Below, in pieces: positions 18,040 to 59,898 of a stretch of DNA of 64,000 nucleotides (the stretch's first letter is position 1; the number at the start of each line of letters is the position of its first letter). Source of the stretch: Bacteriovoracaceae bacterium (GTDB lineage: Bacteria > Bdellovibrionota > Bacteriovoracia > Bacteriovoracales > Bacteriovoracaceae); the NCBI GenBank assembly GCA_947446575.1, contig CANFHC010000013.1, forward strand, positions 1 through 64,000. Reading direction: 5' to 3'. The notes beneath the pieces are model-generated. The model had not been told where the DNA came from and did not search any database. It saw only the letters and a list, made by a program, of their open reading frames with translations. The position numbers and the translations under genes were made by a program.

Positions 18040-18996
18040 TTACAAAAAAAGTATCATCGACATGGAAACTTCTTGAAGGAGATAATTATTGTAAGCTACT
18101 CCCACTAATACGTGTTTATTGAGAAGATATTGAGCCCCATAATAAATATCATTTTTTGTATTTTGGTAAAGTAATTGGCCTTCGCCAAATGCCGAATTTG
18201 AAGAGACCTCACTTCTTTGCGCAAGATTGAACATCCATCTTCCTAGTTGAAATGAGGCGGAGTACAGTTTCACCTGAGTTTGCAGAGGATAAAATTTGTA
18301 CTTAGTATTGATAGCTCCCATATCCAAGGAAAGTCTGCCCAAACTCATGCCCAAAGTATAAGTATAAACTTTAAATGTTTCTTGATAAGTTGGGCTGTTG
18401 TAATAAGTAGAATAAGCAGTACCTGTATCAGGATCAAGATTTGATCCTAAATTAACTTTAACATCATCGCTATAAGTATAGGCTCCCATCGTAAACATAA
18501 ATAACCTTGCCGATGCTCCCACTCCTGGATTAATTTTTTTTATATCTGGATTTCTTTTAGCCGATAAACCAATATCAATACTTACATTTTTTTTCTCTAT
18601 GAGACTTAATCCCAAAGCTAAACTAATCTTTTCATTTTTGTATTGTTTTTTATTGAGCCTACGGGTGAGATAATCACTACTCATTTCAATTGGACGATTT
18701 CCGAAAAAACTATTTTCCTCGGTATTGGAAACGAGGGCACCGAATTTCCCGGTTCCACTTGCGAGGTCAAATTTCAGTGGATTGCCAGCCTGGTATCTAG
18801 TTTCAATTCCAAGTCCTTTTATTTTACTAATATTACTGGGATTTAAACTTCCGGCAGAACTAGTTGAAGGAAGTGACCTCCCACTACTGCGCTCAGATGC
18901 CCCCGAACTTCCACAATGAATAAAATAATTGCAAAGATCTTCATCAGCAAACGCAATATTTGATAAAACAAGTTGTAGGAAAAGAAATAATTTAAT
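18040..18996 (-). CDS. secreted, probably outer-membrane beta-barrel protein with an ATT start
   Basis: 318 residues if read from ATT at 18996. From that codon the product begins MKLFLFLQLVLSNIAFA, a complete signal peptide, and then DEDLCNYFIHCGSSG and a Ser/Gly-rich stretch. Six bases before the ATT is AAAAGG. A stop codon lies four codons upstream of the ATT, and no ATG, GTG or TTG occurs in frame until the ATG at 18684, which would remove the signal peptide. The C-terminal two thirds alternate polar and hydrophobic residues with many Tyr, like a beta-barrel, and end in the aromatic-containing SMSMILFL. Family not recognised. The gene could also be a start-codon mutant. Confidence 0.68.
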   Translation of the reverse strand: MKLFLFLQLVLSNIAFADEDLCNYFIHCGSSGASERSSGRSLPSTSSAGSLNPSNISKIKGLGIETRYQAGNPLKFDLASGTGKFGALVSNTEENSFFGNRPIEMSSDYLTRRLNKKQYKNEKISLALGLSLIEKKNVSIDIGLSAKRNPDIKKINPGVGASARLFMFTMGAYTYSDDVKVNLGSNLDPDTGTAYSTYYNSPTYQETFKVYTYTLGMSLGRLSLDMGAINTKYKFYPLQTQVKLYSASFQLGRWMFNLAQRSEVSSNSAFGEGQLLYQNTKNDIYYGAQYLLNKHVLVGVAYNNYLLQEVSMSMILFL

Positions 18997-19077
18997 GATG
19001 AGCCTTTTCTATAAAGTGGCCATTACAACTATAATATTATAATTCCACTTCCGTATTTTTCACAATACGAGAAAAAG

Positions 19078-19950
19078 TTACGGTTTATACCAACAAACAG
19101 GACGATTCCCAACCGTATCACCGTTTCTCAACGAACATACTCCAGTATTAGCATCAGTCGAAGAAACTAATTCTGAAAAGCCATGGTCGCAGAGAGAAGC
19201 TTGAAAATACGTATCAAGACGACATTGTGCATGTGGATGTTGATCATTTGTTTGAGCAACAACCGATGTATCAGGTGTTACAAAGTTAACCGGAGTCTTC
19301 CCTTGCATGATAGCGTTTAATAATTTTGCTGTAGCTAAACCCGCCATTGCAGATCGTTCACAGAGCGCTATTTCGTTCGCGTTTTTGTAAACCAGCTGAC
19401 AGTTGCTCAATACATTGGCAGGAATCGTCATTTTACTTACGATAGTAACGTTGTCATCTTGTTCGAAATAATGACGTAAGCATTTCATTGATCCCCAATA
19501 GTCTGCCTGACCTTCATTTGATGCCCACATTTGCTGAACTCCAGCCTTCTTCGGCGCTCCGCCTAAGTGGTGACCTAGTTCATGGCAAGCAACTAGTGCC
19601 ATTGCGTCTTCTGTCGTCTCAATATGGCGAGCAAGGCCTCCAAACATTACGATAGTATCTACTCCTGGAGTTTGTTGGTGAGCATAAGCGTTTACATTTT
19701 CATCAGTCCATCTTCTTTCGATAACAAACTTTTTTCCTGTCGCTTCTACCGCACTCGTAAAAAGAGCTGAGACTCTATCCATGACTTTATTGAATTGAAC
19801 ATCTGAAATTCCACCTAAGGCTTTTTGTCCAACTGGAATTCTTAAGCTGTTCTCTGGTGCAAATCCCGTGTGCCCATGAATGTCACATGCTGATGCTCCA
19901 AAGGAGAAAAGACTTAAAGAAAGTAGAGAAATTTTTAACCAACTTGTCAT
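19078..19950 (-). CDS. secreted zinc metallopeptidase
   Basis: 290 residues with a signal peptide cut near ASA-C (residue 21). The zinc site is H123-E124-x2-H127 in ACHELGHHLGG, and a downstream NEGQAD (E146, D150) supplies the third ligand in the manner of M48-like or gluzincin peptidases. Four or more Cys in the C-terminal part suggest disulphides. Start ATG 19950. It stands alone and is probably periplasmic or exported. In a predatory-type genome, secreted proteases are common, but a role in prey digestion is only inference. Confidence 0.82.
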   Translation of the reverse strand: MTSWLKISLLSLSLFSFGASACDIHGHTGFAPENSLRIPVGQKALGGISDVQFNKVMDRVSALFTSAVEATGKKFVIERRWTDENVNAYAHQQTPGVDTIVMFGGLARHIETTEDAMALVACHELGHHLGGAPKKAGVQQMWASNEGQADYWGSMKCLRHYFEQDDNVTIVSKMTIPANVLSNCQLVYKNANEIALCERSAMAGLATAKLLNAIMQGKTPVNFVTPDTSVVAQTNDQHPHAQCRLDTYFQASLCDHGFSELVSSTDANTGVCSLRNGDTVGNRPVCWYKP

Positions 19951-46237: not shown

Positions 46238-46300
46238 GGAAATAAGCACGTTTTCAAAAAAAATGTTTTGTGCAAATATTTTTTTAAGAAGGAGAACTTT

Positions 46301-46906
46301 ATTATTTCAAGCAGCGTCACTTTGAAAATTATTTATTTAAACATCTTCATATTTCTAGTTTGGAATATATATGGAGTTATTAATCCAAACTTCATGATAA
46401 ATAATTTTTTAGTAAGCTGGAATTCACTCGTTCAAGGAAGAATTTGGACTGTCGTGACTTCAGTATTCTCTCATTCAATGCTTTTGCATATTTTCCTTAA
46501 TATGTTTGTTTTGTTTAATTTTGGAATAATAGTAGAAAACTATTTGGGCCAATGGAGATTTTTTATATTTTACCTAGTTGCGGGAATGTCAGGATCTTTA
46601 ATGCATACAATAGTGTGTGCATTTATTTTAAATCAACCAAACGTAATGGCACTGGGGGCTTCCGGCGCCATTTCGGGAGTATTGATTCTTTTTGCCCTAC
46701 TAAACCCTAAAGAAATAATTTTTCTTTTTGGAATTATTCCTCTGCCTGCCATCTGGGCTGCAATTCTCTTTATGGGTATAGATGCCTATGGATTATTTAA
46801 TCAAGCTAGAGGTGTTATGTCCCCCATAGGCTATGGGGCACACTTAGGTGGAGCTATGGTTGGAATTATATATTATTTTGTTATTCGCTTATCCAAAATC
46901 AACTAA
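46301..46906 (+). CDS. rhomboid protease with an apparent ATT start
   Basis: 201 residues from ATT 46301, exactly six bases after AAGGAG. In-frame alternatives are TTG at 46268 (no ribosome site) and TTG at 46322 (no site). Six helices carry HSMLLHIFLNMFVLFNFG, catalytic S121 in ALGASGAIS, and H181 in YGAHLGGAMVG. It cuts within membranes. It lies ten bases before ftsH, so both are probably co-expressed in membrane-protein quality control. The ATT could be a rare start codon. Confidence 0.82.
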   Translation: MISSSVTLKIIYLNIFIFLVWNIYGVINPNFMINNFLVSWNSLVQGRIWTVVTSVFSHSMLLHIFLNMFVLFNFGIIVENYLGQWRFFIFYLVAGMSGSLMHTIVCAFILNQPNVMALGASGAISGVLILFALLNPKEIIFLFGIIPLPAIWAAILFMGIDAYGLFNQARGVMSPIGYGAHLGGAMVGIIYYFVIRLSKIN

Positions 46907-58763: not shown

Positions 58764-59159
58764 ATGTTACAAAAACTAACAATTGGAGCAAGGATCATTC
58801 TCGGTCTTATGTTCACCATCTTTGGACTTAATGGGTTGCTACTCACATTTACAGGAAGTGGATTTATTCCAATGCCTCCTCAACCAGAAGTTATGGTAAC
58901 CATCATGACTGGTTTTATGGCGACAAAGTATATGATGAAACTCGTCTTCATTTGCCAATTTTTATCAGGTCTTTTTTTTCTCAGCGGATTTTTTGTCAAC
59001 ACGGCTTTAGTTTTACTAGGCCCAATACTTGTGAACATTTTAGGAATTCATCTTTTTGTTGAACCATCTGGCTTACCAATTGCTATCTTAGTGCTGGTTC
59101 TCTACTTAATTGTCTTAATCAGTCGCTGGAGCAATTTCAAAGGACTTCTTAAACCTTAG
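58764..59159 (+). CDS. DoxX-like four-helix membrane protein
   Basis: 131 residues with four helices. The first helix (RIILGLMFTIFGLNGLLLTF) and the following FIPMPPQP loop, then KLVFICQFLSGLFFLSGFF, fit the DoxX family. TTATGGAGGACTC gives the ribosome site. Function of many DoxX proteins is unknown; some join thiol-redox complexes. Overlaps the convergent SRAP gene by 11 bases. Confidence 0.78.
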   Translation: MLQKLTIGARIILGLMFTIFGLNGLLLTFTGSGFIPMPPQPEVMVTIMTGFMATKYMMKLVFICQFLSGLFFLSGFFVNTALVLLGPILVNILGIHLFVEPSGLPIAILVLVLYLIVLISRWSNFKGLLKP

Positions 59160-59898
59160 ATGTTTCCCACTTGTATCCGAAATTAACTTTTTCTTTGTGT
59201 TTTAAAACCTCATAGATTTCATTTTTATCGCGGGCTTTCGGATTGAGCCAAACATCAATTAAATCTTCAGCTAGAAAAATGGGGCAACGATCGTGCCCCA
59301 TTTTTTCTATTTCAGCAGGAGGTCCGTCAGTAATTATGGCAAAAGATTTAAATTGAATTGTGCCGTCGCGAGATGTCCACTCATCCCATAAACAGGGGGC
59401 CCACATTATTTCTCGCTCATCTGGAGCAAAAGAGATGAGTTTTGTTTTGCCATCCGGGCCCTTTACCCATTCAAAAAATTTCGTGAAAGGAATGATCCCG
59501 TGATTTTTCATGAAAATATTTTTCCACGTCTGTCGCATTTCTAGCGAATCAATTCTTGCGTTGAATACATTATATTTTGTGGGGACTTCGCTCACAGCAG
59601 ATTGAGGGCGCACTCTGTAGCGCATAGGCTTTATTATTCGCTGTTCTTTTTCTTCAACAATCACATTAGTAAAGTAATTCGAAAAAACTCTCCCGTCGTC
59701 AGTAGGAAGCTTAAAAGGCATGGAGCGTTTTTTTGATGAATGCCTTATTCCCATAAGGGAGTCGAACTCAGATGAATCCATTGTGCTTTGCAAATTAAAA
59801 ATATGCTGTAACGCAAAGTTATCCCTCGAAGAAATCATGGCCCCGAAATAATCAGACAACTTGTTAATATTTTTATCAACTGCGATTGAAAAACAAAT
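59149..59898 (-). CDS. SOS-response-associated peptidase (SRAP/YedK/HMCES-like) with ATT start
   Basis: 249 residues from ATT 59898. Read so, the protein begins Met-Cys-Phe-Ser-Ile-Ala-Val-Asp, and Cys2 is the nucleophile that must become the N-terminus to trap abasic DNA. The other essentials are present: NARIDSLE, FTKFFEW and MGHDRCPIFL. The codon before Cys2 is ATT, not ATG, GTG or TTG. A longer reading begins at an ATG 23 codons upstream but would bury the Cys. It is divergent from umuD. Confidence 0.88.
   Translation of the reverse strand: MCFSIAVDKNINKLSDYFGAMISSRDNFALQHIFNLQSTMDSSEFDSLMGIRHSSKKRSMPFKLPTDDGRVFSNYFTNVIVEEKEQRIIKPMRYRVRPQSAVSEVPTKYNVFNARIDSLEMRQTWKNIFMKNHGIIPFTKFFEWVKGPDGKTKLISFAPDEREIMWAPCLWDEWTSRDGTIQFKSFAIITDGPPAEIEKMGHDRCPIFLAEDLIDVWLNPKARDKNEIYEVLKHKEKVNFGYKWETSKV

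Follow-up and report, generated by a model that had tools for sequence, protein, structure and literature searches.

Where does translation begin in a gene whose signal peptide is encoded in an open frame with no ATG, GTG or TTG at its head? A gene for a predicted outer-membrane beta-barrel protein raises this question in the 64,000-nucleotide stretch of Bacteriovoracaceae DNA analyzed here (the window; the genome carrying it is designated G000). A preliminary description proposed that AUU at position 18996 starts the protein, or else that the gene has lost its ATG. Comparison with orthologues supports initiation at this AUU.

The barrel gene and its start region

18040..18996, minus strand: gene for an outer-membrane beta-barrel of predicted FadL fold; 318 codons and a stop
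18946..18996, minus strand: classical signal peptide, IKLFLFLQLVLSNIAFA, presumably cleaved before DED
18994..18996, minus strand: ATT, proposed start codon (AUU), matching GTG/ATG starts of relatives in alignment; Shine-Dalgarno (SD) energy -7.2 kcal
19003..19008, minus strand: AAAAGG, SD-like, 6 nt (CTCATC) 5' of ATT 18996
18997..18999, minus strand: ATC, alternative start, opposite the GTG of relatives reading GTG-ATC/ATT-AAA; SD energy -5.3
19009..19023, minus strand: ATG GCC ACT TTA TAG, an in-frame ATG cut off by an amber stop; either a mini-ORF or the remnant of an older start
18682..18684, minus strand: first downstream ATG (residue 105)
19036..19065, minus strand: promoter-like TTGTGA-18-TATAAT with an RNA start predicted near 19029, by consensus scan only
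19078..19950, minus strand: M48-like metallopeptidase gene, the upstream neighbor; the same neighbor is found in G007 (ends GNRPLCWYKP)

The minus strand reads TATAATATTATAGTTGTA ATG GCC ACT TTA TAG AAA AGG CTC ATC ATT AAA TTA TTT CTT TTC CTA CAA. We confirmed the layout given in the preliminary description: AAAAGG six bases before ATT 18996, TAG (19011-19009) four codons upstream (AAA AGG CTC ATC), and no ATG, GTG or TTG in frame for 104 codons after the ATT, the next being ATG 18684. The frame is open from the ATT to the stop at 18040. Absent from that description was the in-frame ATG at 19023, which TAG 19011-19009 separates from the barrel gene.

Relatives of the encoded protein were found in 17 of 57 genomes searched, all Bacteriovoracaceae and 12 of them from the same genus ("Bacteriovorax sp." in GTDB). 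An AlphaFold model built from 18 sequences (md085dc516ad6; mean pLDDT 86) is a beta-barrel, in keeping with the earlier reading of a textbook signal peptide followed by a barrel-like protein. The best solved-structure matches of the model are FadL/TodX transporters (2r8a: Z 20.8, rmsd 3.0, 228 aligned over residues 38-318), suggesting a barrel with an N-terminal hatch of FadL type; its strand count is approximate. Like these transporters, the predicted fold has an N-P-[SAG] segment ahead of its first strand; in the barrel protein this is a conserved N-P-S/A at residues 52-54, which, by comparison with FadL NPA, we take to sit at the hatch position. Unlike FadL/TodX, to which it has about 11% identity, the protein matched no Pfam family above that family's cut-off. 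We therefore describe the fold as FadL-like without filing the protein as a FadL family member, because it matches no curated FadL profile.

The part of the gene upstream of ATG 18684 appears to belong to the protein. Since the FadL fold runs from residue 38, this part is predicted to be structural, and a start at 18684 would strip the signal peptide, the hatch and the modeled strands 60-69, 75-82 and 85-91. In comparison with eight relatives, codon-position divergence is similar on either side of residue 105: changes at third positions are about two times as frequent as those at second positions, and codons 21-104 behave like the remainder. We therefore conclude that the region ahead of residue 105 is translated. 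As is usual, the signal peptide varies more. The relatives, the unbroken frame, the normal pattern of codon-position divergence and the FadL-type model together mark this as a real gene. They make it very unlikely that the gene is decaying, its start lost and its product either not made or made solely from the internal ATG 18684. The missing canonical start, and the fact that the shortened product is still an ORF, would fit decay, but the frame is intact, codon-position bias is normal both before and after 18684, the shortened product would lack the export and hatch elements, and three species share the missing start. This agrees with the argument of the preliminary description that the open frame over the signal peptide speaks against long decay.

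The SD match of ATT 18996 is, by itself, not rare by chance and is average for starts: a match at least as strong as AAAAGG-6-ATT precedes 11% of Ile codons within genes and 53% of ATG starts in our sample of G000. What goes beyond chance is a signal peptide and hatch conserved in frame right up to this ATT, together with the gene's rank as second strongest for coding signal ahead of a first canonical start among the 769 genes of that sample. A search for RNA structure around the start found no stable fold (z -0.6).

Start codons in related genomes

Across relatives, mostly represented by metagenome assemblies, the position homologous to ATT 18996 is GTG or ATG in most cases; the M of G008 (GTG AAA CTA TTT), for example, aligns with the I of G000 (ATT AAA TTA TTT). 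A canonical start is missing at this place in exactly three genomes: G000 (CTC ATC ATT AAA), G007 (GAT ATT ATA AAA) and G011 (CAA GTC ATT AAA). Each has an SD-like stretch upstream (AAAAGG, GTGGGG and CGGGGA, respectively), with energies of -7.2 kcal for G000 and -7.6 kcal for the other two, compared with a median of -7.6 among ATG starts. The equivalents in these sister species thus seem to start at AUA (G007) and AUU (G011), and the same alignment lends support to the proposal that AUU starts the protein in G000. In a tree of IF3 sequences the three branch together as a clade (support 86/89), a grouping that the barrel protein's own tree leaves without resolution. Other candidate codons lie nearby in both sister species, namely an in-frame ATG nine codons before the ATT in G011 and an ATT one codon before the ATA in G007. 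In G011 (locus L003), an inverted repeat upstream of the barrel gene, GTTCCCGATCA ... TGATCGGGGAC, runs up to the ATT and would mask the SD-like GGGGA.

The alignment bears on two neighboring codons that might serve in place of ATT 18996. The first is the adjacent AUC 18999, also near-cognate, which would add one codon and may lie near the RNA 5' end. By alignment this triplet has an equal claim to homology, being in register with the GTG of G005, G002 and G020 (GTG ATC AAA or GTG ATT AAA), and ATC serves as the start of another gene, SRAP, in five genomes (see below). Its SD spacing is too short, however, and its energy weaker (-5.3 versus -7.2); moreover, the corresponding position is GTC in G011 and ATT in G007, whereas the next codon is ATT or ATA in all three. 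We consider a start at AUC 18999 unlikely. The second is ATG 19023, in which case the in-frame TAG would be a nonsense mutation of recent origin, a mistake in the assembly or a codon that is read through. This ATG is in frame, nine codons upstream and 6 nt past the predicted RNA start, and the G001 orthologue starts ATG GCT TTA. Against it, 155 of 769 sampled G000 genes end in TAG, marking an ordinary stop here and leading us to reject a sense reading of TAG in the lineage; ATG 19023 is without an SD (energy -2.2); and at the corresponding position G007 and G011, too, have no canonical start. We regard this reading as rather improbable.

Many relatives carry a TATACT, TATAAT or TAGAAT box exactly 6 bases upstream of the barrel start, a mark from which we read leaderless transcripts. 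The same distance stands out in 864 kb of G000, where TATAAT-like boxes peak at exactly 6 bases ahead of a gene's first ATG (28 of 701 genes, compared with about 11 at neighboring distances), and a few per cent of genes in the lineage look leaderless. In G000, the predicted RNA start near 19029 would leave about 6 bases of RNA ahead of the mini-ORF's AUG, and re-initiation may therefore play a part: ribosomes finishing AUG-GCC-ACU-UUA-UAG could re-initiate at the AUU 12 bases on, a near-leaderless start feeding a weak one. The mini-ORF and the SD directly precede AUU 18996, the stop of the M48-like gene in G007 falls 20 bases upstream of the start of the barrel match, and non-AUG re-initiation works in an E. 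coli reporter with an anticodon-mutant initiator tRNA (PMC2268962). The mini-ORF is absent from G007 and G011, however, and may be there by chance; as the main explanation we give re-initiation only a slim chance.

Near-cognate starts elsewhere in the genome

The preliminary description also suggested that AUU is used more widely in this lineage, citing the SRAP and rhomboid genes of the window. We sampled 864 kb of G000 in stretches (a quarter of the genome; 769 genes) with a simple gene finder. Near gene starts, ATT behind an SD at -7.5 kcal was observed 38 times against 41.5 expected. With an SD better than -9 kcal, it was observed 17 times against 10.7 (P 0.045, uncorrected), an excess surpassed by codons such as AGT and TCT; under the same threshold, ATG reached 127 against 9.9 and GTG 16 against 1.7, with ATC at 5 against 5.4 and CTG at 0. 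This quarter of the genome thus shows no clear excess of ATT behind SD sequences, an outcome of the kind that the preliminary description had named as counting against its proposal.

Nine genes of the sample have a clear coding signal ahead of their first canonical start, the barrel gene ranking second strongest among them, and 275 reciprocal-best pairs between G000 and G003 yielded convincing non-canonical starts for the barrel gene, infC and an rlmI-like gene (~1%). From these counts and three of 275 pairs we conclude that AUU starts are rare and gene-specific: near-cognate starts are confined to a few genes in the genome and are not a general habit. Several other candidates were set aside. 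For C3 + 1796, the upstream part of the protein lies in another frame, pointing to a frameshift or assembly error; a frameshift is probable for C2 - 91984; and C16 - 17865 has a good ATG-started signal peptide downstream. A list of genes without a canonical start near the onset of coding proved too noisy, because the onset is not exactly located. A signal-peptide-like gene (G000:C17 + 11266) opens GTA AAG ATT right after a stop and possibly has a non-canonical start.

The decoding machinery appears normal. IF3_C scored over its cut-off in 8 of 8 good genomes, leading us to reject a missing or lost IF3, and both G000 copies of the initiator tRNA have a normal CAT anticodon stem, leading us to reject an altered anticodon. 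With a normal initiator tRNA and IF3 present, nothing suggests relaxed decoding.

The two window genes cited in support of wider AUU use are:

59149..59898, minus strand: SRAP gene with ATT 59898 taken as its start, directly before the Cys required at the N terminus
46301..46906, plus strand: rhomboid gene read from ATT 46301 (frame 46268-46906), with AAGGAG 6 nt upstream

SRAP is a DNA-damage gene, and its enzyme requires Cys2 as its N terminus once Met is removed (PMC9436759), so the codon before this Cys must be the start codon. It is ATT in G000, G006, G007 and G008, ATC in G010, and ATG in G001 and G009; 21 further Bacteriovoracaceae genes have ATG (16), GTG (1) or ATC (4), for totals of 4/28 ATT and 5/28 ATC (loci L019-L025, L160-L181). 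A stop two to four codons upstream leaves no room for a canonical start in G006 and G008 (TAA, two codons) or L174 (TGA, four codons). An ATT or ATC start of SRAP usually comes with a strong SD sequence; for the ATC genes the energies are -9.9 to -13.2 kcal. Outside Bacteriovoracaceae, all 8 readable SRAP genes start with ATG or GTG.

The rhomboid gene probably uses an AUU start. In the alignment, ATT 46301 falls opposite the ATG of the G005 orthologue, the only close one found (72%; its ATG follows GGAGGT), and an in-frame TTG lies upstream of the ATT. In each of the 12 genomes that yielded an infC gene, its start codon is ATT or ATC. Finally, the rlmI-like RNA methyltransferase gene reads CTG at its start, preceded by TAGAGGC, in both G000 (C3 around 131391, minus strand) and its G003 orthologue, and the G000 gene has no ATG, GTG or TTG for about 90 codons. 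The notion of wider AUU use therefore survives gene by gene (infC 12/12, SRAP 9/28 ATT or ATC, rhomboid probably) and fails as a general habit of the genome.

A probable weak start and its implications

The best reading of the locus, to which we assign a probability of roughly 0.6, is that the barrel gene is read from a weak, IF3-disciplined AUU at 18996 placed by AAAAGG. The SD-like stretch would position a 30S subunit carrying initiator tRNA (CAU) on AUU 18996, and the protein would start with formyl-methionine. As the AUU pairs imperfectly, IF3 would destabilize most such 30S complexes; the barrel protein would for this reason be made at a low level, and its output would rise when IF3 is scarce, as for infC. 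We further infer that the ancestral gene was leaderless, with GUG at the RNA 5' end. In the G000/G007/G011 clade, transcription would then have come to begin further upstream, a G-rich leader would have been gained, and the start would have drifted to AUU or AUA. The orthologous sequences are most simply explained by a common ancestor in which a leaderless GUG gave way to a near-cognate start behind a leader.

Precedents exist for such starts. Borrelia burgdorferi pncA (bbe22) has an AUU start shown by genetics, biochemistry and a crystal structure (PMC13398362); the barrel gene would likewise be an ordinary gene whose AUU start is overlooked in databases in favor of a later codon, its own AUU being supported by comparative evidence. 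infC, encoding IF3, starts with AUU in E. coli and ATC in Streptomyces, and Streptomyces sigR has an experimentally proved, IF3-repressed GTC start (PMC5472188). The barrel gene resembles infC in having AUU behind an SD, the kind of AUU/AUC codon against which IF3 discriminates in infC, but unlike autoregulated infC its product has no link to IF3 function. It would resemble sigR in that a near-cognate start keeps the gene low and is misannotated in genomes, although the codon differs. Known genes started with AUU, AUC, GTC or AUA are kept low, by IF3 in the cases studied (infC and sigR; PMC5472188). In Staphylococcus aureus, cvfC1 (AUU) and ccpN (AUA) are conserved, carry SD sequences and yield ~10-30% of AUG output (PMC13009471); these have extended SDs, whereas the barrel gene has only AAAAGG and its non-canonical state is limited to three species.

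Gene finders that assume ATG, GTG or TTG would cut the barrel protein to 214 residues, lacking the signal peptide, the hatch and part of the barrel. To our knowledge, few bacterial AUU-start genes are known besides infC, and the barrel gene probably adds to the set of bacterial genes with near-cognate (AUU/AUC/AUA) starts. SRAP offers a general tool: since its catalytic Cys has to be residue 2, the preceding codon identifies the start in whichever genome the gene occurs. We tentatively raise the possibility, one that we hold to be doubtful, that Bacteriovoracaceae keep infC, SRAP, the barrel gene, the rhomboid gene and the rlmI-like gene (CUG) under near-cognate starts that interchange with AUG, as an IF3-governed regulon of low expression. 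For the barrel gene itself, the orthologues suggest that the type of start changed, from leaderless GUG to leadered AUU or AUA, inside a single genus.
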